This document shows, in pieces, positions 20,459-45,420 of a DNA stretch of 64,000 nucleotides (position 1 is the first letter of the stretch; every line of letters begins with the position of its first letter). The position numbers and the translations under genes are program-made. Location of the stretch: assembly GCA_025786725.1 (NCBI GenBank), contig JAHLTZ010000009.1, positions 124,001-188,000 on the forward strand, written 5' to 3'. The DNA is from Syncephalis fuscata. Taxonomy: Eukaryota > Zoopagomycota > Zoopagomycetes > Zoopagales > Piptocephalidaceae. The notes below the pieces were generated by a model, which was not told the origin of the DNA, did no database searches, and worked only from the letters and a program-made list of their open reading frames with translations.

Positions 20459-20589
20459 AGCGCTACTCATTGTTCGTTCAAATCCCTTTATTCTTTCAAA
20501 TAAATTAAATTTACTATTATTTGCCACTTTATAATCTATTTAATTTATTTGAACTAAGTATTTGCTCTATTGAATATGAAATTGGATGA

Positions 20590-20800
20590 CGAGTGATATC
20601 AATAATCAAATAAACAACTATAAATTTATTAGCATTATTATTAGTATTTTGTATAAATATATACTTTGTTCATTTATTTACATCTCATTGTATACCCATT
20701 ATAATGTATGTCATTCTATTATATACCAAATACAAACTATTAATAAAGCTATTTATTTATTGCTAATTGCATTTGTTATAAGCGTGGTTGTTTTGTTATA
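20590..20800 (-). repeat. AT-rich repeat R2, second copy (inverted)
   Basis: Reverse-complement relative of 690-835. It fills most of the gap between the convergent 3' ends of GH16 genes 1 and 2. No ORF of substance. Confidence 0.6.
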
Positions 20801-20828
20801 ATCAATGACGCTGTTTATTATTATAACG

Positions 20829-22499: not shown

Positions 22500-24140
22500 C
22501 GAGTAATATTAAATAGTATCAATAATGCTATTGGTCTTGGTGTTGCATTGGCTTGTAAACGTGTAAATGGTTGATTTGTAGTAAAATTAACTGAATAATA
22601 AAAAGTAAACGCTGTATTCCTTCTTAATATCTACTTTGCAGAACTATGTACTTGTATAATGTCGCTCAAACAAACGCAAAGCAATATTATTCCACTATAA
22701 TAGGAATAGGAATAGGAATAGGAACAGTTATAACGGTGAGAAGAGTAAGAACAAAGAAAAAGAGAATAGAGAAACGAGGACAAACAAACTTGCACGATGT
22801 ATGGATGTATCTGCACGTTTTGACGAGAAAAACATTTACTTAGTTTGTGGCTTTATGCCGACTGAGGTCAAAATACCTAGAATACATGCCAATGGGTTTT
22901 TCCATTCGCAAAGAAAAGCGGAGTTGGTAACACTGATAAGGGCAATACCAATGATTATCCTTAACGTTTATAGAAGCATTTGGCCTTAATTGGAATACAG
23001 ACCACAAGCTAAAAATAGTCCATTGGTGTAAAAATTCCATGGAATTGTTTAATGCTTATTATTAGATGAATTTATGTCGTGATTTGCTCATCAAAGAAAT
23101 CTGACCTGACGTGGATTGCGCTTTATTTTTCACTATGATGGAAATGTACTTGTAGATTAATGAAATGCTATAAATATATAAGTGGTGAGATTGCGTAAAT
23201 ATCAACAGTAAAGTGCATGTATATGCGTTTATGCTTAAATGGGCCAAATCGGATTTCAAAAAGAATAGTAGTAAATATATAAATTTATTAATAGAATATA
23301 AAAATAGTACCAAGAAGAATGAAATGGGTAAATATATGAGATTTATAAAGAATAAATGTCATTTAATTTCTAAAAACTACTTATTAGTATAAAACATGCT
23401 AAAGTAAAGGATAAGTATATTAAAATAATACATGGCCATGAATAAATAAATACCATACCATAGAACAATGTCATTATAATTGTCAACTAAGCTGTTTAGA
23501 TTCAGTATATAAACAGCATATTCATTGAATGCTAAATAAAATATTTGCAAACATACCTATTCTAAACTACAGCTTTGTATATAAAACTGACTACAATGTC
23601 ATTATATACTAAAGTAATACAAAACAAATCAAATAGATAATAATCTACAGTTACTGTAGCACAGTAGATTATGAGAATGCCTTTGTACAAAATTTACAAC
23701 TCAATAGCTGGGATTTATTAAATTTAAGGATAAAAGACATTTATTTCCCATGCGGCTGGTGTAACTCTCATGCATATCTTCTCTTCAAGAAAACAGGTTA
23801 TTCTTAATTGAGTATTCAAATAAATAACATTCAAGCTACTTGTATTAAGTATTCGCAGCTAACATTTTTTTAAGGCTAGGTTGATAGTACTGTAAGAAAA
23901 TACATTAAAATTCCAGCACAGAATGATTGAGATGATTTAATACAATATAGCCATTAATATTAATCAAACTAAGTCAAATGTGAGTACATTGACTAGTTTT
24001 TGCATTCTATGTGATAGTACACAATAAAATTGACCTAAAAACTGGAAGGAAAGTGTAGTAGAAAATGAATGTAAATCACAAAATATTAATTTTATTAAAT
24101 CAATTTAATTGATTTATTATTTATTTATTTTGATCAATTT
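22500..24140. other. AT-rich intergenic stretch with short repeats
   Basis: No gene recognised. A short array of ATAGGA hexamers lies near 22700-22722. A dispersed segment at 23455-23600 is shared with 45905-46060. ORFs here are short and AT-driven. It runs up to the Fanzor relic at 24.15 kb and may be part of that decayed element. Confidence 0.4.
23455..23600 (+). repeat. Dispersed segment F, copy 1 (Fanzor-associated)
   Basis: Shares order and wording with 45905-46060: ACAA(A)TGTCATTAT, TTGTCAACTA, GATTCAGT(A/G)TATAA, TGAATG(C/T)TAAATAAAATA, CTAAACTAC, TTTGTAT. Each copy lies upstream of a Fanzor relic, about 570 bp here and about 60 bp in copy 2, so it may be an internal or flanking part of the same element. 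Confidence 0.6.
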
Positions 24141-24149
24141 TTGTAAAAA

Positions 24150-24606
24150 GTTGTTTACTGTAGTGTCCGCTTTTGAAAAAGATAAATGGATTATTTTGTC
24201 GCTTGAGTATCTTTCTGTATTTCACGGAAAAGCAATCACTACCTTTGGCGATGTTAACTTTGGTGTGTCTATGAAAGAAAAACTATTTGCTTTTGCACGA
24301 GAAATCACTAAAACTATCAAGCAAATGATTAATAATTCTAATGGTTCTACAGAATTAATCTACGTTGATGAGTATTTAACAAGTCAAGTTTGTAACAGTG
24401 TAAAAAACATTGGAAAAGATAACGAATATTGGATCAAAGCGTAAAATACATGCCGTACTTAAGTGCAATCTTGCAAGACAATACGAAATCGTGATGTGAT
24501 GGCTGCTAAGAACATATACAATATTTTTACACACAAAGCAAGAAGTAGCGATAAAAGTCCGATTGAATTCAGACGTAAAGGCAGCCAATCATCAACTTCA
24601 CTGTAA
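24150..24606 (+). pseudogene. Fanzor (TnpB-like RNA-guided nuclease) relic 1, C-terminal part
   Basis: Fanzor proteins are eukaryotic relatives of transposon TnpB nucleases. Here only the C-terminal third remains. In order: AITTFGDVNFG (24235 on), VDEYLTSQVCN (24364-24396), then in the next frame KRKIHAVLKCN, then back in the first frame NRDVMAAKNIYNIF (24487-24528), ending at a stop at 24604. The order (FGD..., DEY-x-TS-x-x-C, LKC-x-x-C, NRD-x-x-A-x-NI) is the RuvC/zinc-ribbon signature of TnpB/Fanzor, and the Asp of NRD is the RuvC-III position. Two frame changes and loss of one zinc-ligand Cys (VCNSV) show decay. No RuvC-I region is recognisable upstream. Relic 2 at 46.1 kb has the same blocks. 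Confidence 0.8.
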
Positions 24607-25180
24607 TGCAGATAGTTACATTTCTGCACTTTAAGGATGATTAAATACTTTTTATTTTAAACGGAATAGTCGGTCTTTTTAGAATTGGATATTCTTTTCC
24701 TCGTAGAAGGGTGGGCGGGTAAGAGGAGAAATGGAGTATCCAGGTAAGTAGTATTCAAACCATTGTATCAAGTATTATAACTAACGTATCTTATTTATGA
24801 CATATATTATCTTTCAAATACCCCTTTGGAATGAAACAACAACTGCTGCCTTTTGTATTGAGAAAGCCTTGTAATTACTATACGTAGCCTAGACTGTAAT
24901 AAAACTATTTATATTTACGTCTGCCTTGCTTCCTCCCCTTTTGTCACAGTTCTATTAATGTTGCAGAGGGAAGAAGAATACCCTTCATCTATCTCTCTTT
25001 CTCTTTCTCTTTCTTCTTGCCTATCTTCCTTCCCCTTTCTTAAACTATTAACTACGAACCTTAGTTTTACTACTGCCTGTTCCCTTATTACACCGTACAA
25101 GCAGGCTGGCATGATCGTTTTTTGGTCATCCTGCTATAAAACGACTATTATAAAGATATAATTTACAGGTCCATTTCAAT
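24607..25180. promoter_or_regulatory. Upstream region of GH16 gene 3 with a long pyrimidine tract
   Basis: About 570 bp without a gene. A strong CT tract (about 24988-25045, runs of CTCTTT and TTCCTT) lies roughly 140 bp before the start codon at 25181. Such tracts often mark fungal promoters or 5' leaders; function here is inference. Confidence 0.4.
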
Positions 25181-26925
25181 ATGGATTATCGCAGTAGAGA
25201 TGACTTGGCTTTTAACGCCTCTTCGCCAAGAGGCATAGCGCAGGCTAAGAAAAAGTCTAGTAGTTTGCCGAGTTGGCTGGTTATTGTGGCTGGTATATTG
25301 TTGGCGCTGGGCGTGGGCTTTCTTGCTATTGGTTTTCCTGTTCTAAAGGCAACTGTTTGGAAGAGTAAGCTTGCAGCTGATGGCACAGGCACGGGCGATA
25401 CACCAAGCAATCCAGGCAGTAAATGGATTGATCCAGATACTCCAGAAGAATTACATAAAAAGGTTATGGAAGATAATAAGGAATACCAATTGGTATTCTC
25501 TGATGAATTTAATCAAGACGGTCGTAATTTCCGTCCCGGTCAAGATAAGATTTGGTAAGGTTAAACATGTGATAATGGTAGCTGGTTAGTAATCACACAT
25601 TTTATTATTAGGGAGGCCGTTGATCTATGGAATTGGCAAACAGGTGACATGGAATACTATTCACCTGATCAGGCTACGACAAAAGACGGTAAATTACGCA
25701 TTGCTGTTGAAAAGAAGCAGATTGGTCAGCAACAGTTTGCCAGTGCCATGATTCAAACATGGAATAAATTTTGCTTTCGCGGTGGCTATTTAGAAGGTAA
25801 ATATGAACACTCTGGTCTATACTAATAGTATTTATTCTAATATGAATCTATTTTATTTTAGCCAGTGTATCATTGCCAGGAAGTGCTACGGTACCAGCAT
25901 TCTGGCCAGCTATTTGGACTATGGGCAATTTAGCCAGAGCGTAAGTAGCGTGCGCCACAGTATTATAACATCTAACTCAACAACAATATTAGTGCGTATG
26001 GTGGGTCGACAGATGGACTGTATGTATATAGATTAGCATTTATGATAGTATAGTATATTAATGCAATGTGATTATAGCTGGCCGTACAGTTATGATAGCT
26101 GTGATCTGGGTGTTCAAAAAGGACAAGGCATTAATGCCGGCTATTCCAAGCTAGCTGGTCAACGTTTGAATAAATGTCTGTGCTCGGATCAAGATACACC
26201 CTCGCCAGGTATTGGCCGTGGTGCTCCAGAAATAGATTTAATTGAAGGTGCAGCTGGTGATGGTGGCAACAATGGTGGCGGTACTGTGTCGCAATCACAT
26301 CAATTTGCTCCATTTGACGCCGACTATGTCGTTAATCCACAATATTTTACTATTAATAACTCGACATCTACTTATAAAAATACTTATTCTGGTTCTGAAC
26401 TGCAACAGATGGTATCAGCAAAGACCAAGGTTGGTTCGCAATACTTTGAAGGCAAAGCGTATCAAAACTACGCCTTCCAATACGAGCCAGGACCCAAAGG
26501 CTATGTTCGCTGGTATGTTGACAACAATAAAAAGGCAACCATCGATGCACGTGCTGTAGGACCTAATTCAAAGAACGGCGTTTCGCAACGTCTAATATCC
26601 GAGGAACCCATGGTTAGTAAACAAACAACGTATCGTCCAATACTAATAAGCTATTTAGTATATTATTATGAACGTAGCCATGTCAACAGGTTTTGGTGCC
26701 GTAGAAGTTGATAAAGCACAATTCCCTGCCACCATGACCGTCGATTATATTCGTATTTATCAAGATCCAAATAATATCGATGTCACATGCGATCCAAAGG
26801 ACCGTCCAACTGCGAAGTACATTAAAGATCACCCGAAGCTATACAACAATCCGGGACTTCGGTCCTTTAATGAATCTGGCTATCCACTACCGGAATATAC
26901 TTTGAATCCGCAGTGCAAGGCATAA
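25181..26925 (+). CDS. GH16 beta-glucanase/transglycosidase, KRE6/SKN1-like, copy 3
   Basis: Third paralogue. Basic tail, membrane anchor at about residues 33-54, short spacer, then GH16 with FSDEFNQDG, DLWNWQTGDMEYYSPDQA, PAIWTMGNLARA, catalytic EIDLIEGAAGDGG and VDYIRIYQDPNNIDVTCDP. Unlike copies 1 and 2 it has two extra introns in the central block (from 25941 and near 26018, splitting the YGGSTDGLWPYSY region). The frame is intact. It keeps EIDLIEG where the others have ELDLLEG, nearer to yeast KRE6 (EIDIIEG as I recall the family). Confidence 0.88.
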
Positions 26926-28891: not shown

Positions 28892-29989
28892 TTATCGGCT
28901 TTGTGGCGGTCTCAAGATCCAGTTTCTTGTTAACAGCGACGATGCGTATGGTTGAACAGTTATAGACTGTGTTTCGTTTGTCTCGCACTCTGAAGCAGGT
29001 ATGATAGCAATTCTTGGTGGTCCTACGTCTGCTTTACGCCGACGTTTGGACTCTTTTTTGGCATCACTGGATGCGATAGCTATATTACGCATCTGGCGGC
29101 AGTGTCCAATTAATATTGTCGAGGTCATTAACCTACTGTATTTGTAAGATGGTTTGTTATTTTGCATTTATATCAACATACCAGTCAAGTACGTAGAACG
29201 ACGACGAAAAGTCACCTCCTATCTCAAAAAGTACTACAGTAGCGCATGCAATGTTACATAGTACAACTAGACACATGGTTTGAACTCCATTTCTAGATAG
29301 ATTTTTCCAAGCATCCGAGCCGAAGGCACGGTATTGCCTGTAAGCAATGCGACTGAAAATGGCCGAAAATAACGTGTTAATTGGCGCTGATACAACAAAC
29401 CAGAACCAAGGCTGCCAGGCAGGATAGTTGACGACACACCCTTTTAAAGGTTCAATGGTAATGGGACAGTAGCACAATAATATAATGACACATCCGATTT
29501 GCGGCACCATAAACAAAACACCGATAACGGCGATAGCGCGATTTTTACAAAGCACCAAGTAGGCTCTTTGAAGTACAATTATGTGTTGCACATGAGCCCG
29601 CTGTTAACACCGAAACCCATATACCAAACAAGCACACGACAGCTAATACCGTGAGTGCACATGGCAATGGCCGACAGTATACCAAAGCTTACGCCGTACA
29701 CTGAAGGTAGAAAGCAACACCAGCTTGATAGAGCATTGGAGCGCATCATGACCATATTCAGCGAGTTTCGAAGATTACGAGCAAACATTAACGCTAATAG
29801 GATATTAATCAACATTTGGAATCGAGTACCCGACATTTGTATACGCGATAGTTCCAAATCGTCGGGATACATTGTCATGAATCCAAATATGTCAAGTTCA
29901 CCCAGTGGATGGAGAGGAATGTTTCCAAAATGGGTAGCATTTTTGAGCCACGCTATTCCCAAATGCTCGTTGTTGGTGTTTTTGGGCAT
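28892..29989 (-). CDS. Seven-transmembrane receptor-like protein, type B, copy 2
   Basis: Type B by GTRFQMLIN at TM1, GISCRVLVW before TM3 and GCVVNYPAWQPWFWF; clearly a sister of 11079-12170. WLKNATHFGN, PLHPLGELDIF and YRQYRAFGSDAW are conserved. Exon 1 ends in LDW; an intron of about 45-50 bp leads to exon 2 with LMTSTILIGHCRQMRN and a basic tail ending YASSLLTRNW. A single-base break near 29586, right after MCN, is repaired by one A (giving NTIIVLQRAYLVLC, as in the paralogue). Together with 31831 it forms a second divergent pair. Confidence 0.75.
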
Positions 29990-31830
29990 TACAATTGCAA
30001 ACCTGCTGATAATTAATATAATCTATGAAACTTTATAACGGAATTGGAAATACAAAATACTGTGCAAACTAATGCGCAATTTGCGAACTATGCTCGTGTT
30101 GTGATAATGCCTTACAGTGCCTGAAGTCCGTGACCCATGCAATCTGCACAATGTTGCAGCTACATAGCCTAGGCTTCTTTTAATAGGTTCCTCATGCATG
30201 CGTGGACAGAGAATGATGTCGCAAGACTTGTGGTGATGCTTTATTTCTAAATAGCCTGTAGTTATTACTCATGCTTGAATTCGTGATCCAAGGCATAAGT
30301 AAAACTGAGTTGGGCTGGCCATTTGGCACAATCCGTTGTTACGGGCAGTTTTCACGATATTGCTCGGATTTCACTATGCATTACCAACAGCACATGAGCA
30401 TAATTAATGCATAGCATCACCACATGATATGAGTATCCCATTATAGTAGTAATACTCCAATTAAAGGTTGTCATGTGGAATAATTAAGCCACCATATGTG
30501 TTGTATTATTGCTTATATGTTGCTTAATTTAAACATGTATTTTACTAATATTTGATAACATTAACGTATCCATTTGCTTTTACGCCATATAATTGATATA
30601 ATTAATATAGTTGGTATAATTAATGTATCTAATTATAGCATTGCTTACATTTTATATTTAACAAAATTACAATTTCCAATGACTAATAACACATATTATA
30701 TTAATATTTATTTATAGTAAACAGCTGATCATATCCATTAAAGTACTACAATATTAACGGATAGAGAAGAGCGGAGTTTGAGTATTTTATCGCATGGCGC
30801 CACATTGCATGGCACGGTATATTCTTCAATTACTTTCTGATTAACTACTCAACGCTTCTATTATAGGAACGTTCAGTAACCGTAAAAATAAACGGTGGGT
30901 CATGGCTTTCCGGCCTTTTTTGTAAACTGCGCCTTAAATGACTGTATACGTAGTCGATAATAAAGCAACTCAGGACTGTTTTGTACAACTGTTGTTCAAG
31001 TGATTAGATAATAGCACGCTTTCTACGTCTTTACAGTACAAGTTGTCTATGCTAAATAGTCGCTAGGCCGTTTATTTCCGAACATATTGCATGCCGTGGA
31101 ACCACACTTCTATGTTACACTCAGTAATTGACCGCGCCAGCTACCTTTATGTAGATACAGCATGTGGAGTCTTTCATTGTACTATAGAGCCAACTAGGAT
31201 GCGTAGCGAGTATATCTATTATTGCTGCCGCATGCTACCTGTTATTCGCGCTAGTATAGCGTGCTATTAATGGCAGCTAAACTGGTGCTCGGCAGTCGAC
31301 GCATCGCTAGTGCAGCTAGAGCGAAACTGCCGGCAGATAAGCATGTTGTTGGCCTTTCTATAACAGCACATCGAGGCCAAATTCAAGCTCAGACTTCAGG
31401 TGCGTATAGCGCCGGCGGCCCGATAGTTCAAGTTTCTCCATCACGGTGTTACTGTCGATCCCAAGCCGCAATGTATCATTGCTAGTCGATTGCCTATTTC
31501 GTGTAGCCATAATGCGCGTGGAAAGACATAGCAATGGATTAGAGCCAATCTTTTTGGATTAAACTACTTGATTGGGCCTAGATGTCCACCCTCTTCCAAA
31601 GGCCATGCAAATTTGAACCTATGGGAGTACACAAGCTACACGGATAAATCACACATATGGCACAGACCTATGGATCCTGGGTTCCGCAAGTTCTCCCGTG
31701 ATAGTTCCAACGAAGGACCTCTCATCAAACTTATTCTCCGTTAATATTTTATATTTCCGCTTATATATATATACACTACTTATTACTATTAGTATATTAT
31801 TTATCCCTGCTGTATATTTTATTTAGTAAA
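29990..31830. promoter_or_regulatory. Divergent intergenic region between 7TM genes (pair 2)
   Basis: About 1.84 kb. Like the pair 1 gap it includes stretches of near-normal GC without a readable gene (a 74-codon ORF at 31261-31485 is unrecognised). Around 30500-30720 it turns very AT-rich. I found no obvious sequence shared with the pair 1 gap by eye. Confidence 0.35.
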
Positions 31831-32901
31831 ATGCCTATAAACAATCACAACGAAGCGTTAGGAACAGAATGGCTGAAAAACGCCACGTATTTCATCGGTA
31901 TACCGCTCCATCCTCTCGGTGAGGTTGATACCATTGAATTTATGACACAGTTTCCCAACGATATAGAGAAGACTCGTAGCCGAGTCATTGGTCTCCAATT
32001 TCAAACAGTATCTGTTCTAATGGCAACTTTTATATTTATACGTAATTTTAATATCTCTTTAAGAATGGTGGTATCACGAGCCCGCACTCTTTCTGCCTGG
32101 TGTTGCCTTTTACCAGCTTTACTAGGCATCGTATTTGGCTGCATGATCATTTATGCCTGGCTATTTAGCGGCTTGAACTGCCGTAAAATATTCTGGTTCA
32201 GCGGCTTTATCAACACTGTTGCTATTATGTGCAATAGCATTATTCTTCTTCAGAAGGCCTATCTTGTCCTCTGTCGTCAGCGCTGGATCGCCGTTTTTGG
32301 CACGCTCTTTACGCTTCCACAGCTGGGCTTTTTTGTCATCGTACTAGTATCCTGCCCAGTGACCATTGAACCAAATATTGGCTGCGTCCTCTATTACCCC
32401 TTCTTCCTTCCGTGGTACTGGTTCTTTGCCGCCGTACCTATCAGTCTATTCTTCTCGGCCATCTTCAGCTACATTGCTTATAGACAATATAGTACATTTG
32501 GTTCTGACGCATGGAAACGTCTAGCACGCGATGGTATCCAAACCATGTGCCTAGCAGTGCTGTGTAATGTCATCTGCGGTATGATTATTGTCTTCCAAGT
32601 AGGTGGTAATTATGCAATCATGTTTTATGTTGCAGACTGGTAAGTAAAAGTAAATCTAACAGCTGTACGCTTTATTAACAACAACAACTGAACTAGGTTG
32701 CTCACATCAACAATTCTGTTGAATCATTGCCAAAATATGCGCAAAGCATCCCAGCTATCCAACCGCCCCAAGACTCAACATCTTCTTAATCTTTCTCAAA
32801 TTCCGACTTCCAAATCGATACTGACCGACAGTAAAATACGTCATTCCAACACAAAGTTTTCATCAATTGCCCCGCTGACCAACGATGATTACAACGACTA
32901 A
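31831..32901 (+). CDS. Seven-transmembrane receptor-like protein, type A, copy 2
   Basis: The only intact reading frame of the four 7TM genes, so it is the best reference. Exon 1 gives 270 residues: EWLKNATYFIG with an N-glycosylation site (residue 17), PLHPLGEVD, seven hydrophobic segments, GLNCRK before TM3, QKAYLVLCRQRW after TM3, and CPVTIEPNIGC in the second outer loop. It ends at VADW; a GT-AG intron (about 32641-32697) leads to LLTSTILLNHCQNMRKAS and a Ser/Thr/Lys-rich tail. The layout (outside N-terminus, two loop Cys, basic cytosolic tail) fits a GPCR, but no named class is recognised. Confidence 0.78.
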
Positions 32902-35107: not shown

Positions 35108-35742
35108 CTATTTGCGCTTTTCAAAAGCTTCACGTCCAAGCACTCGGATGAGTGTTTCCTGAGCGAAATGCTCTCCTTGTGCCTCGGCAATTTCTAATTC
35201 AATTTTGCTAGGACGTTCACCATCGGCTGCAGCCACTGTGCTTGCACCATAAGGACTGCCGCCCGTAATCACTTTTGGCTCGTTAAGTGCCGGATGCGAA
35301 TATCCAAATGGTACAAACTGCATCCCAAGATGAATAACGTATGGCATCATAGTTAGAGTCGTGGTTTCCTGGCCGCCATGCTGAGAATTGGTCGAGTAGA
35401 ACGTGCCAATAAGTTTGTTTCGAAGTGTATTGTTGGTCCATAGTCTGCCGGTAGCATCCATGAGCGCTTTTGTTTGAGCAGGAACATGCCAAAGCGAGTA
35501 GGATTGCCGAGTAGAATGCCATCAGCATCGGCCAATTCCATAGGATCAATAACCGGAATGGTTTTGTCACGAGGTGGCGCTTTCATAAGTGCAAGTATAT
35601 CGTCTGACAAAGTCTCTTGGATTTGATACATTTTAACATCCACCTTTGGCACCCGCCGCGCGCCCTGTGCTATGGCACGCGCTAACTTGCCAACATGGCC
35701 ATACATTGAATAGTAGACAACGTACACTTTGGCGGCAGACAT
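35108..35742 (-). CDS. NAD(P)H:quinone oxidoreductase, WrbA/PST2-like, copy 1
   Basis: Flavodoxin-fold, FMN-binding two-electron quinone reductase. In fungi such proteins associate with eisosomes or the cytosolic face of the membrane and protect against oxidants. Conserved: VYYSMYGHV (phosphate loop), GNPTRFGMF, TNSQHGGQETT and GGSPYGAST. I chose MSAAKVY (35742) as start because paralogues begin there; an in-frame ATG lies at 35760. One break near 35472 (after RFGMF) is repaired by one C, giving PAQTKALMDATG. It is the most divergent of the three copies and lies opposite to them. Confidence 0.85.
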
Positions 35743-36264
35743 GTTGATAGCAAAAAACAATGGCTAGAATACGATGCGATGTATACTTCGTAGCATTATA
35801 ACACAGTTAGATATGAGTAATGGCCCCTTTAGATTGTTCACACACTGCTAAATTTCAGGAGACTTTGTTTGCTAATAAATTTGTTTATTAGCCATATTAT
35901 TGGTGTGGCTGTGTGCTAATAGTTTTGATGAATAATTGTCAAAATGGTTTGACCTGGCAAATGTATTGGGCTGAACCAGATGACTAACAAGAGCCATACA
36001 CAGAGGCGTAAATGGATGGGTGATTACAGGCACATTAGCGTGCTTACTGATGTGACAGTGAAAACGAAAACTATTGGCCAACAGAGGCAAGCTGAAAGTG
36101 AAATTACTAATCTTTGACAAATCCAGCTCCACTATACTCGTTCTGTGTAACACCCGCAATTAGTAGGATTATTCACGTCATGAACGCCATCCTATTTCGA
36201 CACGTGTATTTATACTAAGCCTAACTTTAGCTTTACACTTATCTTGCCAACACACTTCAACATA

Positions 36265-36288
36265 TCTTCTTCTTCTTCTTCTTCTTCT
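36265..36288. repeat. (TCT)n microsatellite in the leader of WrbA-like gene 2
   Basis: Eight consecutive TCT units, about 60 bp before the start codon at 36349. Pyrimidine tracts at this distance are common before well-expressed fungal genes. Confidence 0.8.
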
Positions 36289-36348
36289 GTCTACTGACAC
36301 AGTTATCAGCTATTTGTAACCACCAACAACAACACTTCGATTTCAACC

Positions 36349-36990
36349 ATGACTGTCACCGCCACCGTCTATATCATCTACTACTCGACCTACACCCACG
36401 TCCACAAATTGGCCAAGGCCATTGAGGCTGGCGCCAACCGTGTGGAGGGTGTAGAAGTTAAGCTGTTCCGTGTGCCAGAAACACTGCCAGAAGAAGTACT
36501 TGGAAAGATTGGTGCACCTGCCAAGCCAGATGATGTGCCCATTATTGAAAAGGCTGACCAGCTAACTGGAGCTGATGGCTTCCTATTTGGTTTCCCAACT
36601 CGTTTTGGTCTTTTGCCAGCTCAGTTCAAGACCTTCTTGGACAGCACTGGTGGCCTCTGGGCCTCGAACGCACTTCGTGGCAAACAAGCCGGTCTTTTCA
36701 CCTCCACCAACACCCAGCACGGTGGACAAGAAACCACCGCCTTCACCACCCTTCCATTCCTTGCTCATCACGGTTTGCAGTATGTTTCATTCGGCTACGG
36801 CCACTCTGGCATCTCCCAGGCAAAGGAAGTTGGTGGTGGCAGCCCATACGGTGCCAGCGTTGTAGCTGGTCTTGAGGGAGATAGCCCAACTAAGCTAGAG
36901 CTTGAGATCGGCGAGGCTCAAGGTGAATACTTTGCCAAACAAGTTCTCATCCGCAAGTTGGGCGAAAAGGCACTTGCTGACAAGCAATAA
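36349..36990 (+). CDS. NAD(P)H:quinone oxidoreductase, WrbA/PST2-like, copy 2
   Basis: Single intact exon of 213 residues, unusual in this intron-rich window. Flavodoxin fold with YIIYYSTYTHVHKLA, GFPTRFGLLPAQFKTFLD, STNTQHGGQETT, FGYGHSGI and GGSPYGAS. Codon use is visibly biased to C- and G-ending codons and the leader is pyrimidine-rich, both consistent with strong expression (inference). Its last 50 coding bases are identical to those of copy 3. Confidence 0.92.
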   Translation: MTVTATVYIIYYSTYTHVHKLAKAIEAGANRVEGVEVKLFRVPETLPEEVLGKIGAPAKPDDVPIIEKADQLTGADGFLFGFPTRFGLLPAQFKTFLDSTGGLWASNALRGKQAGLFTSTNTQHGGQETTAFTTLPFLAHHGLQYVSFGYGHSGISQAKEVGGGSPYGASVVAGLEGDSPTKLELEIGEAQGEYFAKQVLIRKLGEKALADKQ

Positions 36991-37414
36991 TTTCTATAGC
37001 CATGCACATGTCGTGTATATTCCATCACTGACAAATAAAATAAGTTTAGCTCTTTGATCATCACAAATAATATTGTCTAGTTTTATTTAATTACTGTAAA
37101 ATGCATAATAAAACAAACTTGTAAATTTTAATTATAGATTCGACTAATACTATTGCTTTATATTAGTAGTATTAAGCAATGAAAAATACCCATGATAGTA
37201 AAAGCTATTTGCACGCAGTCTGAATGTAGCAAGGTTTATAGGAAATAAGCTATGAGCAGTATACGATATAGGTGGTTAGATGATATATGTATCTAAATAA
37301 TAAGTATACAATATTATTATTTTGATGGCATCAGCCATCTATTACTCAGTTCCATGTTCGATAGAAAAATGGTATTAAATGTAATCATCTAACCACCATA
37401 TCACACGAATGGTT
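36991..37414. other. Intergenic DNA between WrbA-like gene 2 and element D
   Basis: AT-rich; AATAAA-like signals follow the stop of copy 2 (around 37035). A segment near 37340-37390 resembles 45490-45545 (CAGTTCCATGTT followed by AGA and TATTAAAT). No gene seen. Confidence 0.4.
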
Positions 37415-38144
37415 AAACTTCACTTTGACTTCCACATTTGAAGTCCTCAAAGCAAATTCGTTCCAATTCAAGTCGTACTGTTATTTACAACAAACATAGT
37501 TATAATGTTTTCCTTTGACTACTTTGCAATTCACAAGGCGATTATTGTTGTTGTTGGCTATGCGTAGAAAGATTGATCGAATATTAATAAAGCCATTGAT
37601 TGCAATTCCATATCGTTCTGCAGTTGTTGGTATTGTTAGTACGTACAGTGTGGTTTCTTGCGTCTAAATGATTTCCTCTATTTTTCAATCTTCTACTGTT
37701 GCATTTTGTGCATGTTTGTGATGTAAAATATTCATCTATGGTGACAAGAAGGTAAGAAAACTAGCATTTTTGATGTTCGCCATTCTCTTGAGCATTCTTG
37801 GCATCAACTTGGTAGGTGCAGATTATTTGCCAACCATTGATGAAGCAAATTGGCCTCCACCATATGTAATAATGATAGGTTGAGTGTCTTCACCAAAAGA
37901 TCTTGTGCGACAGTTGTAACCAGAATATACGACATACTGTTGAGGTTACTTGAACAGGTGTTGATGTAAATAAGAGAAATAAAGACTAGGAATTGAATAA
38001 TGTTTTTATTGATGTTCAAATACACATGTCATTTGTATTGTTATATTCAACATTATTGTATAATATATTACTGAATAGAATATCCAAAAAGACGATGAAA
38101 TGAGTAAATAAAAAACATAGAAGTCAAAGTACAGTAGCTCCCAC
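37415..38144 (-). mobile_element. Dispersed TIR element, copy D (most complete ends)
   Basis: The left end reads AACTTCACTTTGACTTCCAC and the right end, as reverse complement, GTGGGAGCTACTGTACTTTG then ACTTCTATG; the shared core ACTTTGACTTC in inverted orientation defines terminal inverted repeats about 730 bp apart. Read on the minus strand, the interior matches copies B and C (TTTACATCACAAACATGC, AATATTCGATCAATCTTTCT, TTTGAGGACTTCAAATGTG). All reading frames are broken. Confidence 0.65.
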
Positions 38145-38729
38145 GAAATAATTAATCAATTGTTTAATATTAGTATAATAATAAAAAAATCAAACAAAGT
38201 TGTTAATATAATAGTTGAATTGAGCTTTGCCAGTATTTTTTATTAAAAACTTGCTATAGTTAAGCCGCTATATCAACTAGAAACTATTTTATTATAGTTT
38301 TAACATGTAATTATAAGCAATTAACAGGAAATTCTACTAATTCAACGTCAGCTGTATTCTATAGAAGATTATTACTGATACTACCATTAATAAAACAGAA
38401 GATTAGTAAATTCAGCATTGCAAATTGGGCTAACTAATGACAAATTTCCTTTCACTCACTGATTGAGGTTGAGATTACTAATCATTTTGTCGGAATTTCA
38501 AATCACTTTCTAATTGACCTTTGACCGGCAAATCTATTTGTCATTTTTTTATCAGGGAAGCTGTCCAATCGGAGCTTTATGATTAATTCAGCCTAAATTT
38601 TCGTGTATTTATATCGCGCATTATTTTCGATCTTTTTGTAGCAATATCACAACATCAAGTTAATTGGCTCTTTATTCGATCTTTCTACTTATCAATACGC
38701 ACAAAGCAAAAACAAAACAAAAGTTCAAA

Positions 38730-39370
38730 ATGACTGCTATTGCCACCATCTACGTTCTTTACTACTCCACCTACTATCACATCCATAAGTTGGCCAAGGC
38801 CATCGAGACGGGTGCCGGGCGTGTTGATGGTGTGGAAATCAAATTACTTCGTGTACCAGAAACCTTGCCAGAAGACATTCTTAAGCTTATCCAAGCACCA
38901 GCAAAGCCAGAAGATGTACCAGTTATTGAAAGCGCCGAACAGCTAACTGAAGCCGACGGCTTCCTATTCGGTTTTCCAACTCGTTTCGGTCTCTTGCCAG
39001 CTCAATTCAAGTCGTTCCTCGATGGAACTGGCGGTATTTGGGCCTCGGGTGCTCTTCGCGGCAAGCAAGCTGGCTTTTTCACCTCAACCAACACTCAACA
39101 CGGTGGACACGAAACAACCATTTTCACAGCTTTACCTTATCTTGCCCACCACGGCCTTCAATTCGTTCCATTCGGTTATGGTCACCCCGGCATTTCTGAT
39201 ATCAAACAAGTTATCGGTGGCAGTCCATATGGTGCTGGCACGATTGCTGGCGTCGAAGGAGATAGCCCAAACAAAACTGAAATTGAAATCGCCGAAGCTC
39301 AGGGCGATACTTTGCCAAACAAGTTCTCATCCGCAAGTTGGGCGAAAAGGCACTTGCCGACAAACAATAA
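38730..39370 (+). CDS. NAD(P)H:quinone oxidoreductase, WrbA/PST2-like, copy 3
   Basis: Near-full paralogue of copy 2, single exon, starting MTAIATIYVLYYSTYYHI. It keeps GFPTRFGLLPAQFKSFLD, STNTQHGGHETT (His in place of Gln), FGYGHPGIS and GGSPYGAG. A one-base break near 39308 shifts the last 20 codons; one added T restores YFAKQVLIRKLGEK and the stop at 39368. The gene is flanked by inverted copies of the same dispersed element (D upstream, C downstream). Role as for copy 2. Confidence 0.87.
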
Positions 39371-39456
39371 CTTTTTTATTGTATAATGTTATAACAATGT
39401 TAATAAATAAAATTAGCTATTCTAAAGCAAATAACACTATTTTGATTAAAGTTTGA

Positions 39457-40066
39457 AGCCATTGTACTTTGACTTATATTTTTATTTATTCCTTTCATCC
39501 CCAACATTTAGATATAATTAAATATTCATTTATCACTATTCCATGTATTATATTACATTCAACATTAATTAGCTCATGTGTAATTATCAGTATAATAATG
39601 TAATTAATAGTTATCTTTATTATTGCTTTAATATATACATTGTCATTATAATATTAATTGTTTAAAATGTCATTTATTTAGGCAGATTGACTATAGGAAA
39701 AGTGACTGTTTAATAAACAACTTTTATAATAATTATATTAATCTTGATTTTACATTACAGATATGCCCAAAATGCAATAATAGAATATTAGAAAATAGAA
39801 GAGACCATTCAGATGCAATAACCCATGCTGTATTTAGATATAACAACAACAGCACATGCAGAATGACATGGAATTGTAATCAATGACCTCTATTAATATT
39901 TGATCAATCTTTCTACACATGACCAACAACAACAATGATCAGCCTCAAATGTTTAATGAAATCAAATAGTATGTTACATTGTTTATTTAAATTAATTTAT
40001 TAACAATATTTTTGTTAGGAAGTAACATAACTATGTTGCGTATAACAACAATGTGACTTCAATTAA
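39457..40066 (+). mobile_element. Dispersed TIR element, copy C
   Basis: Close relative of copy B: ATTGTACTTTGACTTA end, GCAGATTGACTATAGGAAAAG, GACTGTTTAATAAACAACTT and TTACAGATATGCCCAAAATG in the same order. Read on this strand it shows ICPKCNNRILENRRDHSDA and CRMTWNC before an in-frame stop, the best view of the possible zinc-ribbon region. The 3' end is weak, near ATAACAACAATGTGACTTCA. Confidence 0.6.
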
Positions 40067-41689
40067 AATAATTTAATCATATAAATATTACGCACTCAAT
40101 CCAATGTTTTGTTTTATTTAGTATATAGCTATACAACTTTTATTGATGGTCAATAAATAAAATTAATATGGCTTTCTATTATTGCAATAATGTATAATAT
40201 TAGTTACTTACTCTAATAAATAATTAAATTAAGCCTTATAATAATTGGCTTAGTTGGTGGCCGTGTACATGTAAGTATATAAGAAGTTACAATATGATTG
40301 TAAATATCTATTCATACAAGCAATCAGAATTATAAATTATAGCGACAATAATAAGCTATTTAATTACTAAACTTATTTATTTAATTTTATTTACATCTCT
40401 CTGTTTCTTGTGCGTTATCTCGGTTTAACGTTACTGTTGTTTTAGCTGCATCAGCAACAGCCAACTTTTTGATAAATCTAGTCCAGCTTAGCATAGCTAT
40501 AATGATTTGCTATAAGCTAAGCCAGTAAGCCTTTAAGATGCCAATTGTTTTTTCATTGGTTCTGCTTTGGCTTGTTCTTCTATAATCCATTTTGCTTGAC
40601 TCGTCAGGATTAATTTCAGAAATGTAAGTAGCAGTTAGACCTTGGATGATTACCCATTGCTATGCGATTTATAGCCATTAAGTACTCGAAATTACTGTTA
40701 TTTGGTTAGAATTTTTATTGTGCCTAACTAGTGTCTGCATATTGTATTGCATGTAATTTATCCAAACAATTTAGTTTACAGCTGAAAACTGATGACGAAG
40801 ATGACATGTTGGAATGTTCCATTGTTCAAAATGCCGTGATGCATCATGCTACAAACAGTACTTACTGTATAGTTGATTTCATGTGATTTGGATTAGCCGC
40901 CATTTGAATGATGCCAGTTGCACAACATGTAGCATGATATGCCTGGATGTGATGCATTTGTGAATTCAAAGCAATGATTACCCATAACAATGGGCATAGT
41001 GTCGAATGAAATGCACGCATGCACCAATCAATACACTTTATAATTTAAGGAATTATAATTGGTTTACGTATGGCAGTAGAGACCTGTATAAAATACCAGT
41101 TTGATACATTAAGCTTGTTTTTGTCTCAGCGTTGTGTGCTATTTTGTATGCAACAGATATTGCGGACCGAATCAGTAGAAATGGCAGCAAAGACATTATT
41201 ATCGTTTTCACAAAACCAAACAATATACTTGTTTTTACCAAATAGTTAAATTGTGTAGCAGAAAATACAGGCTAATGTGCCTATTTTTATCACATATGTA
41301 CTGGATTATTACCATTATTGTGTCATTCCTGTAAATGACTAGCAGATTGAAGTAAAGAACAGGAGGTTAAAATCAAAACTGAGCAGGTTAAACTCAAGGC
41401 TAGAACTATGATGTCACGCCATGAATTTATTGGTACATGTGCACCTCAAACCATTGCTTGGATTGTTTATTGGTTCATATTACACAGCAATTGTATATCT
41501 CGATACTACATCTACAGTATACTGGCATCTTGACATAATCTAAGCTTAAATAGCTCACAAAATATACACAATCAATTGCAATATCATCATCACACTCTAC
41601 TTCTTATTAAACACACACTACTCTCCACTTTATACCAACCACACTCTACTATCTCTTTTATTTGTTTGTCTTAACAAATCAATATCATC
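40067..41689. other. Long AT-rich intergenic stretch before the micro-exon gene
   Basis: About 1.6 kb. No ORF with a recognisable product on either strand. The last 100 bp before 41690 are CT/CA-rich (CTCTACTTCTTATT, CTACTCTCCAC, CTATCTCTTTT), like other leaders in this window, and probably hold the promoter and 5' leader of the following gene. Confidence 0.45.
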
Positions 41690-44600
41690 ATGAAGCTTTC
41701 CATTACCGTCGTTTGCACCGTTTTTGTGGCTTTGATAGCCGCTACGGTCATGGTGGATGCTAATCCAGCATTAATTCGTCGTGGTAGTATGTTGCAATAA
41801 CAATAAATATGCCATAACATTTTGTTTACTAACAGTATTTTTAAATAATAATTACAATAGGCAGTAAGTTGTATTGTATATTAACTATACATTAACTATG
41901 CTATCTACTAATTATACCAATTATTTAATATTAATAGAGGGTAAGTTGTATTATATATTACTTGACTATACATTAACTATGTGTCATATACTGTATCTAT
42001 CAACAACTTGATATTAGAGGAATGTAAGTTGCATTGTATATTAATTGATTACTCACTAATTGCATATTATGCACCATGTGTATCAATGCTTTAATATTAA
42101 TAGGTCGTAAGTAATATTGTACATTAATTAACTATTGACTAATTATATACCATTTATTGCGTGTATCAATAACTTAATGCCATAGAGAGTAAGTTGTGTT
42201 GTGTATTTATTTATTTTATTTTAAAAGTTTGTAGCCCCCCGCTCGCATAATTAAAGAATTTGCGCAGCTTCCTACTATTTTGGACTTTTCCAAAGTATCG
42301 GGTGGACTGTCATGTTTTTGCGCAAAATACGGCCCATATAAATTTCACGCGGGACCAACTTCTTTTTGAATGGTGCTGCACAGCATTATTTTCTTGAAGC
42401 TAATCCTAATTGGTTTTTCCTCGGCTATTCTGGCCAAGGTTTATTCCGACCTACTTGTTGAACTTGTTTACTGGATAAACTGGAAGGTTTCCACTTAAGG
42501 ATTGGTTCAAACTGAGTTTGAACCCACAGCCTTCAGCTCGGAAGACGCCGCCTTAGCTACTGAGCTATCCATGTCCCCATTGTATTGTGTATTAATCAAC
42601 TATGTGCTAATTTTATACCATGTATTGTGTATATCAATAATTCAATACTAATAGAATGTAAGTTATATTGTATATTGATGGCTTATTCGCTAATCACATG
42701 TTATGCATCATGTGTATCAATAACTTAATATTAATAGGCTGCAAGTAGTATTATATGTATTGGCTTATAAATTACTCATATATCATGCACTTTGTGTATC
42801 AATAACTTGATAAAATAGTGGGCAAGTGGCACTGCATATTAGCTGACTACACACTAATTATAGCCATGTACTGCATGTGTATCAATAATTTAATATTAAT
42901 AGCTGGTAAGTTGTATTGTGTATTAGCTGATTATGTGTTAATTATGTGTATCAATAAATATTGATAGAATGTAAATAGAATTGTATATTAATTAAACATT
43001 AGCTAATTACATGTTATGCACCATGTGTATTAATAACTTAATATCAATAGGCGGTAAGTTGCGTTGTATTTAACCGATTATACACCAACTTCATATTATT
43101 TAATATATACATCAACAATTTACCATAATAGATGGTAAGTGATATTGTATATTAACTGACAATATATTAACTATGTTATTTATTGATCGTACCAACTATT
43201 TAATATCAATAGGAGTAAGCGTTATTGGTATTAATTGACTATACATTAACTATGCTATTTATTGATTGCGCCGATTATTTAATCTCAATAGAGAGTAAGT
43301 GTTATTGTATATTAACTGGCTATATATCAACTATGCTATTTATTATTGTACCAATTATTTGCTATTAATAGATTGTAAGTTATTGTATATTAATTGACAA
43401 TATATTAACCTTACTATTTATTAATTGCACCGATTATTTAATATTAATAGATTGTAAGTTGTACTTTATATTAACTGACAATATATTAACTATGCTATTT
43501 ATCATTGCACCAACTATTTAATATCAACAGATAGTAAGTAATATTGTATATTAACGGACTATGCATTACCATACTATTTACTGATTGCACCATTATTTAA
43601 TATCAATAGGGAGTAAGTGTTATTGTATATTAGCTGATAATATATTAACTATGTTATTTATTGATCGTACCAACTATTTAATATCAATAGATAGTAAGTA
43701 ATATTGTATATTAATTGACAATATATCAACTATGCTATTTATTGATTGTACCAATTATTTGATATTAATAGATTGTAAGTATATTGTATATTAATTGACA
43801 ATATATTAACCTTACTATTTATTAATTGCACCGATTATTTGATATTAATAGATTGTAAGTTGTATTGTATATTAACCGATTATACACTAACTTCATATTA
43901 TTTGCTATATACATTAACAATTTACTATAATAGATGGTAAGTGATATTGTATATAAATTAACTATACACTAACTATGCTATTTATTGATTGTAACAATTA
44001 TTTGATATTAATAGAGGGTAAGTTGTATCGTGTATTAGTTGACTATACATTAACTATGTTATTGATTGATTGTACTAATAACTTAATATTAACAGAATGT
44101 AAGTAATATTGTATATTAATTAACAATATATTAACTATGCTATTTATTGATTGCACCAATAACTTAATATTTATAGATAGTAAGTGATATTGTATATTAA
44201 CAAACTATACGCTATGCTATTTATTGATTGTACCAATTATTTAATATTAAGTGTGTAAGTATATTGTATATTAAAGCTATGCATTACCATACTATTTACT
44301 GATTGAACCGATCATTTAATATTAATAGCTTGTAAGTGATATTGCATATTAACGGACTATACATTAACCATGCTATTTATTGATTGTATTGATTATTTAA
44401 TATTAATAGGCAGTAAGTGATATTTTATATTAACTGCTTATACATTAACTATGCTATTTACTAATGGTATTAATTATCTAATATTAATAGAAAGTAAGTA
44501 ATATTGTATATTAAATGACTATAAACTAACTATGCTATTTACTGATGTAAATTATTTATACAATAGAGGGTAATTTATAGTGTATATTAATTAACTATAC

Positions 44601-45056
44601 ATTAACTATGCTATTTACTAATTGTACCGATTATTTATACAAATAGATTGTAAGTGGTATTGTTTATTAATTGGTTACTCACTAATCACATGCCATCTAC
44701 CGTGCGTCAATAACTTAATAGGCGGTAAGTAGAGCTATGTATTAAGTGTCTAATAACTAATTATATACTATTTATTGTGCATCAACAACGTAATACTAAT
44801 AGAATGTAAGCTATATTATATATTAGTTGACTAGACCTAAGCACATGTTATGCACCACGTATTAATAACTTAAAATTAATAGGCTGTAAGTAGTATTGTA
44901 TATTGATGGCTTATTCACTAATTATATGGCATATAATATCTTTATTTGTAAATACAGCATAATCGATGGTTTCAAGACATTAGCATTGGTAGTGCAATCG
45001 AACCACTATTCCAATACAATTTAGGTATATATTCGGTGAAATGCAAGACCATTTGA
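41690..45056 (+). CDS. Predicted secreted peptide encoded by a 36-exon micro-exon gene
   Basis: I do not recognise this protein. Exon 1 (41690-41783) encodes a signal peptide, MKLSITVV..., hydrophobic core to about residue 22, cleavage likely after VDA, then NPALIRR, a possible Kex2 site. It ends in phase 1 before GTAGTA. Thirty-four micro-exons follow (listed under the array feature), then a terminal exon 44958-45056 starting HNRWFQDISIG and ending at TGA. Total coding length 297 nt, 98 residues. Joined in the exon 1 frame the micro-exons read without a stop, giving a short Cys-rich part (C-x2-C-x3-C) and an Ile-rich part; the other two frames stop. Five Cys follow RR. Joining exon 1 straight to the terminal exon gives an immediate stop. 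The gene model is inference from splice motifs; transcript evidence would decide it. Confidence 0.65.
41861..44957 (+). repeat. Tandem array of ~34 intron units separated by 3-nt micro-exons
   Basis: Each unit is (A/T)AATAG, a short variable block, GTAAGT, then about 70 nt of AT-rich DNA. Blocks (start, sequence): 41861 GCA; 41938 AGG; 42018 AGGAAT; 42104 GTC; 42186 AGA; 42655 AAT; 42738 GCT; 42819 TGG; 42903 CTG; 42968 AAT; 43051 GCG; 43132 ATG; 43213 GA; 43292 AGA; 43372 ATT; 43451 ATT; 43531 ATA; 43610 GGA; 43691 ATA; 43772 ATT; 43852 ATT; 43934 ATG; 44015 AGG; 44096 AAT; 44177 ATA; 44252 TGT; 44329 CTT; 44410 GCA; 44491 AAA; 44567 AGG; 44647 ATT; 44722 GCG; 44803 AAT; 44883 GCT. Thirty-two of 34 are 3 nt. 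Spacing is mostly 72-81 nt. Two donors are GCAAGT (after blocks 7 and 8). The triplet is the least conserved part of the unit. Confidence 0.9.
42208..42579 (-). mobile_element. tRNA-derived SINE inserted in intron 5 of the micro-exon gene
   Basis: Read on the minus strand from 42578 the head begins GGGGACATGG, with a pol III A box at 42553-42567 (TAGCTCAGTAGCTAA) and a B box at 42514-42524 (GGTTCAAACTC), the spacing of a tRNA. An unrelated body follows and an A-rich tail (AAAATAAAATAAATAAATA) ends at 42208. Flanks carry a 14-bp target-site duplication, 42194-42207 and 42580-42593, with one mismatch. The SINE plus one duplication is 386 bp; removing it turns the 466-nt intron into 80 nt, the array norm. 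I saw no second copy in the window. Confidence 0.85.
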
Positions 45057-45224
45057 CAACTACGCCGTCCAGTCTATTTATATATCAAGTTTTGGCCAAT
45101 GCTCCAGTTTATCCAGTCTCTAACCAATGGAATCATTATTTTACCAACTAGATGCAATCTTGTTGTCCTTATGCAACTTTACAAGCTTATAGTAATAAAA
45201 TTATGGTTGCATCTTAACAAAATA

Positions 45225-45420
45225 ATAATAATAAGCCGTCAATCAGTTTTTAATACTGAGAACCGATTCGTTGAAGCGTGCTATATCAATTCCAGTTAAT
45301 TCAAGTAAAGATGAGCCAGTCGACTATTTTAATATCAATATTAGTGTTAATAAATGTTAAATAGTATTTCATGTTACTTACAATAAAATATAATAAATAG
45401 ATGAATGATAGTAATAAATA
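45225..45420 (+). repeat. Relative of the 58.5-59.7 kb inverted-repeat arm
   Basis: Shares with 58560-58740 the order GT/CATCAATCA-TTTTTAATAC, GAAGC, ATCAA, TTTAATATCAATATTA, AATA(A/G)TGTTTCATG-type block and TTACTTACAATAAAATA. It starts about 170 bp after the stop codon of the micro-exon gene. An ORF at 45099-45299 overlaps it and is not considered a gene. Confidence 0.55.

Follow-up and report, generated by a model that had tools for sequence, protein, structure and literature searches.

A 64,000-nucleotide stretch of Syncephalis fuscata DNA (contig JAHLTZ010000009.1, positions 124,001 to 188,000; hereafter, the window) carries a putative gene in which a signal-peptide exon (41690-41786) is followed by 34 units, each composed of a splice acceptor, a short block, and a splice donor, and then by a last exon starting at 44958. 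The best explanation of this locus and its relatives, to which we assign a probability of about 0.93 on the DNA evidence, is a large S. fuscata family of secreted, mostly six-cysteine peptides whose single-codon exons are joined in order. In this proposal, exon 1 would supply the signal peptide and a pro-region ending in Arg-Arg plus about one more residue, the mature peptide would be coded almost codon by codon in 3-nucleotide (nt) exons separated by introns of about 78 nt that are tandem repeats of each other, these micro-exons would be spliced together in order, and the last exon would give only the stop codon and the 3' untranslated region (3'UTR). Since nearly all introns appear to be phase 1, each residue would span two micro-exons, taking the last base of one and the first two of the next. 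The triplets are read as single-codon exons joined in order because of a reading-frame signal and a likeness to intronless paralogues. An earlier note on this DNA had proposed a gene in single-codon exons behind a signal-peptide exon, and this core claim is supported by stop depletion, cysteine enrichment, a spacing confined to N3, and the resemblance to intronless paralogues.

Joining the 1323 micro-exons of 49 arrays in the exon-1 frame yielded 4 stops in 1388 codons, compared with a mean of 82.9 (minimum, 62) in 1000 shuffles within arrays; one carried base was assumed in all 49 rows, though L033 is really phase 2, and L033 lies outside the 38 non-redundant rows, in which 4 stops stand against 70.1 after shuffling (minimum, 48). 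For blocks that are neither joined nor translated, the stop count would not depend on their order. Stops are not depleted in the other two frames (18 versus 18.6 and 145 versus 128.7 after shuffling), and cysteine codons in the exon-1 frame reach 222, with 107.1 expected and a shuffle maximum of 127. Block shuffles that kept 2, 3, 4, or 6 neighbouring units together gave 36.1, 25.5, 18.6, and 13.7 stops, respectively; none of them (500 each) was as low as 4, the minimum being 5 with blocks of 6, and reversal of the unit order gave 82. Among the 34 clean non-redundant arrays, 32 are free of stops, and L059 and L068 have one each. Exon 1 leaves phase 1 in 48 of the 49 rows, and nearly all internal exon lengths are divisible by 3. 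A recognisable final acceptor is present in 40 of the 49 rows, and 26 of these hit a stop within three codons of it, mostly as xA-TAA, including L033, a truncated locus whose apparent last exon is spurious. The remaining 14 are L039, L057, L066, and the window copy (2-nt unit), L073 (4-nt unit), L058, L070, L071, and L079 (stop at the fourth codon), L024 (cut short), and L040, L045, L049, and L064 (other last exons).

The spacing of the splice motifs was then counted in the whole 28.95-Mb assembly. AATAG-N3-GTAAGT has 3183 exact matches, compared with 28 for the reversed pattern, whereas the N2 form (59; control, 58) and the N4 form (54; control, 50) stay at background level; ATTAG-N6-GTAAGT, the 6-nt form seen near array starts, occurs 145 times (control, 42). 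The block from AG to GT is therefore kept at 3 (or 6) nt genome-wide, and the N3 motif is far commoner than chance would give. The earlier note had regarded the same motif at unrelated loci as telling against a gene; no such case came up among the arrays analysed, all 49 of which lie behind the same leader, through which they were sampled. Some AATAG-N3-GTAAGT matches stand isolated. Two five-unit clusters of the motif, at C1:575193-575778 and C1:609974-610559, have no leader among the leader matches listed.

The introns (median, 78 nt; 5 to 95% range, 74 to 80, with outliers) have the conserved 5' and 3' splice motifs of spliceosomal GT-AG introns: the 1016 introns of 60 to 90 nt in the 38 non-redundant arrays start with GTAAGT and end in a TTAATAG-like sequence, both strongly conserved and near-uniform across units. 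Their removal from RNA is indirectly supported by the coding signal, by the intronless paralogues, and by the fit of one deposited protein (P0003, see below). When the RNA of two units was folded, the structure was not out of the ordinary (z, -0.79). Splice-site footprints are such that an acceptor and a donor three bases apart can hardly be bound at once. Given short introns and a mere 3 nt between an acceptor and the donor that follows, the introns would probably be excised singly by intron definition, each step adding one codon to a growing exon.

Nine intronless genes with the same leader remain open through a Cys-rich mature part to a stop, after which a shared 3'UTR motif is recognisable in eight (all but L037). 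For comparison with these, we took the 32 of the 38 non-redundant arrays that have at least 20 units, entering rows with a 2-nt unit as read; they match the intronless mature parts with a mean of 16.9 bits, compared with 6.6 for residue-shuffled sequences. The best pair, L047 and the intronless L076/P0004, shares 51% identity across 35 columns (E = 7e-11 at a fixed database size of 100,000). This alignment of DPAK-CNQCMSQCYGNYPYPSQAINDCPKRCAKQC with DPAKLCDKCIDKCHKNYPYPSLATRYCLGYCRKEC extends from the third residue of the array product (35 micro-exons) to its end and has one 1-residue gap, on the array side; every micro-exon in the aligned part is needed, because omitting any would open another gap. 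Further pairs are L077/L028 (E = 1e-5), L056/L020 (5e-4), and L080/L012 (8e-4). Exactly six cysteines are found in 20 of the 32 arrays and in 8 of the 9 intronless genes (in the part compared), and the spacing CxxCxxxC is found in 14 of the 32 arrays, with 2.4 expected, and in 7 of the 9 intronless genes. Array and intronless copies also share upstream DNA, for up to 1.45 kb (the full length compared) at about 80% identity in the best pairs, and over a median length of 328 to 530 bp in mixed pairs, which speaks against simple retroposed intronless copies with new promoters. A tree of leader plus 3'UTR from 34 rows (27 array, 7 intronless) requires 3 changes of state and is weakly supported. 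The model of the intronless P0004 is weak (mean predicted local distance difference test score, 60.8), with helices at 34-48, 52-62, and 64-67 in the mature part.

Deposited proteins touch the arrays at several points. For P0003, which comes from the L047 locus, an exact match is obtained with exons of 94, 3, and 3 nt that meet at the predicted junctions, the reading then running on into the intron that follows; this path was reconstructed by a path search from the protein. P0005 and P0007 fit other, evidently different splice paths. P0006 nearly fits L010/L077, no tried splice path reproduces it, and one residue (N for D) stands out by eye. P0008, P0009, P0010, and P0011, also deposited for S. 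fuscata, share the leader and differ in their mature parts; several classes of peptide may use one leader, unless these models are wrong. In a protein search with the intronless paralogues, all 11 matches were S. fuscata hypothetical proteins, and when the complete joined peptide of L047 was searched, the matches were P0003 and three other proteins (4 of 4 from S. fuscata), none of them the full product. Neither search detected homology to proteins of the schistosome micro-exon genes (MEGs), within the limited sensitivity imposed by the 5-residue shared words required. Pfam gave nothing significant (one insignificant match for one of five proteins), nor did a PDB sequence search (best E, 0.35).

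The family is large. The leader exon has at least 40 DNA matches (40 of 40 scored; 247 candidates at first look) and at least 146 protein matches at an E value of 1e-5 or better (150 of 328 candidates scored), both counts being lower bounds, and part of the matching loci was analysed further; at least 40 matches to the 3'UTR were found as well (40 of 40 scored; 239 candidates at first look), at 88 to 100% identity. The S. fuscata genome would thus appear to hold at least 146 leader exons, many with arrays. With a position weight matrix and a chaining script, arrays of at least 6 units were recovered behind the leader in 50 rows, 49 of them with a recognised exon 1 end, along with the nine distinct intronless genes. 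Later loci were picked from the leader protein matches mainly for short open frames, so that arrays are over-represented; of L009-L038, only 14 loci re-entered the final chaining, partly since longer stretches covered others. Outside the 49-array statistics are L052 (exon 1 end unrecognised), L060 and L084 (fewer than 6 units), and L075 (leader not found), and L044_1 and L061 in the chaining output are chance leader matches. The longest arrays have 41 micro-exons, and for one small peptide often 25 to 40 exons would have to be joined. Joined products without the signal peptide are KPALVRRAKDPAKCNQCMSQCYGNYPYPSQAINDCPKRCAKQC for L047, NPALVRRASREECDDCRARCRKAGGLFCSWANCWKEC for L041, NPALVRRAGGSEECRVCLENCKKNGWSAFWCHTWSTCSRAC for L044, and NPALVRRGSYEECKACMVVCKDRGELSKEQCQGKCYNQC for L049. 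A hydrophobic leader, an Arg-Arg site, and a Cys-rich, hypervariable mature part together suggest secreted peptides cut by a Kex2-like protease. S. fuscata is a zoopagomycete fungus, and Syncephalis lives on other fungi; we would guess that the peptides act outside the cell, perhaps in dealings between the parasite and its fungal host.

In the window copy, 33 units came from the automatic chain, and one, TGT at 44252, is a manual addition. Of the 34 blocks, 32 are 3 nt, one is 6 nt (42018-42023), and one is 2 nt (43213-43214); the earlier note had arrived at the same count of 34 with 32 of 3 nt, and its 16 different triplets are likewise recovered from the unit list. The donors are mostly GTAAGT, with GCAAGT twice, as it had reported, and in addition GTAAGC twice and GTAAAT and GTAATT once each. 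Tandem Repeats Finder assigns a period of 81 to part of the array (43126-44670). Two boundaries are revised. The end of exon 1, placed earlier at 41783, is most likely 41786, where other copies end right before GTATGT; both candidate ends leave phase 1. The segment 44958-45056, previously taken as a coding terminal exon, codes only CA-TAA in the family frame, most relatives stopping two bases in (xA-TAA), and we assign the rest to the 3'UTR because intronless paralogues carry the same sequence; the earlier reading probably came from the frame obtained with the 2-nt unit included. Upstream, blastn coverage involves 22 to 26 sampled loci over 40250-41500 and 5 to 8 over 39750-40249. The candidate features are as follows.

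40250..41689, plus strand: upstream region and 5'UTR common to other family members (blastn; may extend further upstream)
41690..41786, plus strand: exon 1, putative signal peptide and start of the pro-region, MKLSITVVCTVFVALIAATVMVDANPALIRRG plus 1 base (phase 1); leader matches in DNA and protein
41861..41863, plus strand: micro-exon 1, GCA
41938..41940, plus strand: micro-exon 2, AGG
42018..42023, plus strand: micro-exon 3, AGGAAT (6 nt; this form is also over-represented genome-wide)
42104..42106, plus strand: micro-exon 4, GTC
42186..42188, plus strand: micro-exon 5, AGA (acceptor CATAG)
42206..42590, minus strand (orientation by eye): insertion of about 390 bp resembling a short interspersed nuclear element (SINE), in the intron after micro-exon 5; similar sequence at other loci
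42655..42657, plus strand: micro-exon 6, AAT
42738..42740, plus strand: micro-exon 7, GCT (donor GCAAGT)
42819..42821, plus strand: micro-exon 8, TGG (donor GCAAGT)
42903..42905, plus strand: micro-exon 9, CTG
42968..42970, plus strand: micro-exon 10, AAT (donor GTAAAT)
43051..43053, plus strand: micro-exon 11, GCG
43132..43134, plus strand: micro-exon 12, ATG
43213..43214, plus strand: micro-exon 13, GA (2 nt; donor GTAAGC), frame shifted if included
43292..43294, plus strand: micro-exon 14, AGA
43372..43374, plus strand: micro-exon 15, ATT
43451..43453, plus strand: micro-exon 16, ATT
43531..43533, plus strand: micro-exon 17, ATA
43610..43612, plus strand: micro-exon 18, GGA
43691..43693, plus strand: micro-exon 19, ATA
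43772..43774, plus strand: micro-exon 20, ATT
43852..43854, plus strand: micro-exon 21, ATT
43934..43936, plus strand: micro-exon 22, ATG
44015..44017, plus strand: micro-exon 23, AGG
44096..44098, plus strand: micro-exon 24, AAT
44177..44179, plus strand: micro-exon 25, ATA
44252..44254, plus strand: micro-exon 26, TGT (weak acceptor TTAAG; added by hand)
44329..44331, plus strand: micro-exon 27, CTT
44410..44412, plus strand: micro-exon 28, GCA
44491..44493, plus strand: micro-exon 29, AAA
44567..44569, plus strand: micro-exon 30, AGG (donor GTAATT)
44647..44649, plus strand: micro-exon 31, ATT
44722..44724, plus strand: micro-exon 32, GCG
44803..44805, plus strand: micro-exon 33, AAT (donor GTAAGC)
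44883..44885, plus strand: micro-exon 34, GCT
44958..44962, plus strand: start of the last exon, CA-TAA, stop in the family frame (from relatives' last exons)
44963..45240, plus strand: 3'UTR common to array and intronless paralogues (DNA matches)

Exon 1 looks like a signal peptide by eye, with a hydrophobic leader, and the product in its frame reads SKEECQKCLAECD up to micro-exon 12. With the 2-nt unit included, no stop follows for about 33 codons, into the 3'UTR region; skipping the unit gives a product that ends in ENYYRNNYYEEYMSCKKDCECS and carries six cysteines beyond the leader. The window copy may be broken or inactive, or it may skip its 2-nt unit.

This frame shift in the window copy is one of several observations that weigh against ordered joining of single-codon exons. 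A 2-nt unit is present in three further rows (L039, L057, and L066) and a 4-nt unit in one (L073), and exon 1 of L032 and L033 is shorter by 2 nt and out of frame. The four remaining stops comprise two in L039, after its 2-nt unit, and one each in L059 and L068. The length counts (1253 micro-exons of 3 nt, 65 of 6 nt, 4 of 2 nt, and 1 of 4 nt among the 1323) are biased toward 3 nt by the chaining script, which penalises other lengths; the genome-wide pattern counts are unaffected. Only 12 of the 32 array peptides beat all 20 of their own shuffles in the comparison with intronless genes, and only 4 beat the highest single shuffle, although a non-uniform match is as expected for short, fast-evolving peptides. 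L061, L067, L081, and L085 are short arrays (6 to 15 units) whose Gly/Pro/Ser-rich peptides are without the cysteine pattern.

Other explanations account for parts of these data. The units are tandem repeats spread over many loci, as they would be in a satellite with chance splice-like motifs and the triplet as its variable spot, but such a satellite would put no constraint on the triplet or its length; stops are depleted in the exon-1 frame only, N2 and N4 spacings are at background, and the joined triplets match intronless genes, which leaves a satellite with hardly any probability. The DNA units would look alike too if the ribosome, and not the spliceosome, skipped the 78-nt spacers, yet spacers of the form GTAAGT...TTAATAG conserved over 1016 introns are a spliceosomal signature, and we know of no translational bypassing of this kind in fungal nuclear genes; we consider it extremely improbable. 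That the arrays are decayed relics superseded by the intronless copies, mostly pseudogenes and the window copy among them, would fit the 2-nt unit in the window, the 2- and 4-nt units or shifted exon 1 elsewhere, the interruption of L060 after its first micro-exon, and the absence of a full-length array product from either protein search. Gene finders do not model 3-nt exons, so missing annotation is expected, and 32 of 34 stop-free clean arrays, 26 of 40 rows that reach a stop within three codons of the final acceptor, and few triplet changes between close paralogues make decay a very unlikely account of the family.

A further possibility, raised in the earlier note, accepts the gene and holds that single-codon exons are skipped in varying combinations, so that each copy makes a mixture of peptides. 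Any 3-nt exon could be dropped without a change of frame, and the splice sites are near-uniform, so that some skipping seems likely; in the window copy, the family frame and the six cysteines are preserved only if its 2-nt unit is omitted. The single 1-residue gap in the 35 columns of the L047/P0004 alignment needs every micro-exon there, however, and the rarity of triplet changes between close paralogues, most of them at the third codon position, suggests that one full-length product matters. We therefore judge combinatorial splicing to be rather unlikely and favour ordered joining.

The arrays appear to change by whole units. L019 is without eight consecutive codons of L045 (a 641-bp gap), whereas the two are otherwise nearly identical, their remaining introns being 0.5% diverged; between L077 and L078 there are gaps of 81, 824, and 905 bp, one being an alignment end and another containing a long intron. 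Between units of different arrays, 3 of 126 triplets have changed where intron cores are less than 2% diverged, and 9 of 85 where they are 2 to 5% diverged (seven at codon position 3, two at position 1, and none at position 2). Within one array, triplet similarity is lost far faster than intron similarity: at core divergences of about 4% (16 pairs) and 7% (63 pairs), 31 to 59% of triplet sites differ, these pairs not being independent. This within-array pattern may reflect selected divergence after unit duplication or homogenisation of the introns. In our reading, units duplicate and are deleted as codon cassettes, after which selection settles the codon; introns kept alike by gene conversion fit as well. 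Recombination between near-identical introns could add, remove, or replace whole codons in frame and so diversify the peptide, for which the above gaps give partial support. Paralogous arrays first gave a strong-looking signal of positive selection on their triplets (82 of 891 micro-exon sites versus 725 of 23450 intron sites in 16 chosen pairs), which was dropped: the third codon position is about as fast, and where the 60-nt flanks on both sides reach 88% identity or more, differences are confined to 9 of 67 triplets. Positive selection is not claimed, because units that were replaced or out of register account for much of the excess. The wider proposal of a codon-cassette architecture, in which a single codon plus its intron is the unit of both splicing and evolution, up to about 40 3-nt exons are joined per message, perhaps with skipping that gives a peptide mixture, and a hypervariable six-Cys secretome results, seems to us evenly poised.

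Several known systems resemble the family in part. Schistosome MEG exons are longer, about 6 nt upward; aphid bicycle proteins have cysteine pairs, and bicycle exons are well above one codon; conotoxin-type precursors combine a conserved signal and pro-region with a hypervariable Cys-rich mature part and are encoded by ordinary exons. The precursor plan of the last is similar to the one proposed here, and no relation is claimed. MEG products occur in secretions, their coding lies mostly in very small symmetrical exons, and their evolution is accelerated (PMC4350168); the peptides proposed here would likewise be secreted and evolve fast, and they are coded mainly in tiny exons whose lengths are multiples of 3. 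Unlike in the MEGs, nearly all internal exons here are one codon long and the introns are tandem repeats of each other, and no homology is claimed. The aphid bicycle and megacycle genes (PMC9168663) are also fast-evolving putative effector families with many small exons, one gene having more than 100 microexons; bicycle genes average about 17 exons with internal exons almost all in phase 2, whereas the exons here are 3 nt in phase 1. Plant microexons of 1 to 15 nt (PMC8831610) demonstrate that tiny exons can be spliced, with GTRAGT donors at 1-nt microexons, and are often unannotated; in the cases described there they occur one or two adjacent per gene, whereas the arrays described here would make up the whole mature protein. 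Xlr2 of Trichoderma offers a fungal microexon that has been shown to matter (PMC11121469), but it is a single regulatory one. The S. fuscata family would thus work like a micro-exon gene at its limit, with no schistosome homology found and a phase different from that of the aphid family. Among the open-licence papers listed, a set that mostly leaves aside subscription papers, no report of arrays of single-codon exons was found; the sole match on single-codon or 3-nt exons concerns a dog PICALM variant, and none was found on splicing or introns in Syncephalis.

If RNA confirms that at least 30 single-codon exons are routinely joined, a new kind of gene architecture would be a fair claim. It would be the most extreme split of coding sequence known to us, introns following almost all codons of the mature peptide throughout the family; serial splicing of 3-nt exons could then be routine without exon definition, and intron repeats would serve as recombination platforms for codon-by-codon protein evolution. 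It would also point to a secretome of possibly more than 100 genes missed by annotation in a fungal parasite of fungi, and the arrays would allow a study, in a natural system, of how the spliceosome copes with an acceptor and a donor three bases apart.

SINE-like sequence lies in array introns of the window (42206-42590) and of L039, L046, L048, L054, L055, L071, L082, and others. It was detected in 16 sampled loci, some overlapping (L025/L048), at 74 to 84% identity in the 12 rows shown, and one of its ends is an A/T-rich tail, while the opposite end looks, by eye, like a tRNA-like head; a scan of 42150-42650 with ARAGORN gave no tRNA, and Rfam gave no match in the window at gathering scores. 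An additional stretch of about 416 bp in L071 is absent from L070, an otherwise near-identical array. At L060 (C256, about 745.8 kb), the leader and first micro-exon (ATA) are followed by an insert that includes a SINE-like stretch, into which P0007 reads.

Elsewhere in the window, several open reading frames (ORFs) at 18755-26711 resemble, by eye, repeated KRE6/SKN1-type glucan-synthesis proteins, and three adjacent WrbA/flavodoxin-like genes at 35108-39386 look like a local family. The ORFs at 8789-11900 and 29157-32643 are mutually similar, appear by eye to encode multi-pass membrane proteins with WLKNATY near the start, and are possibly receptors.

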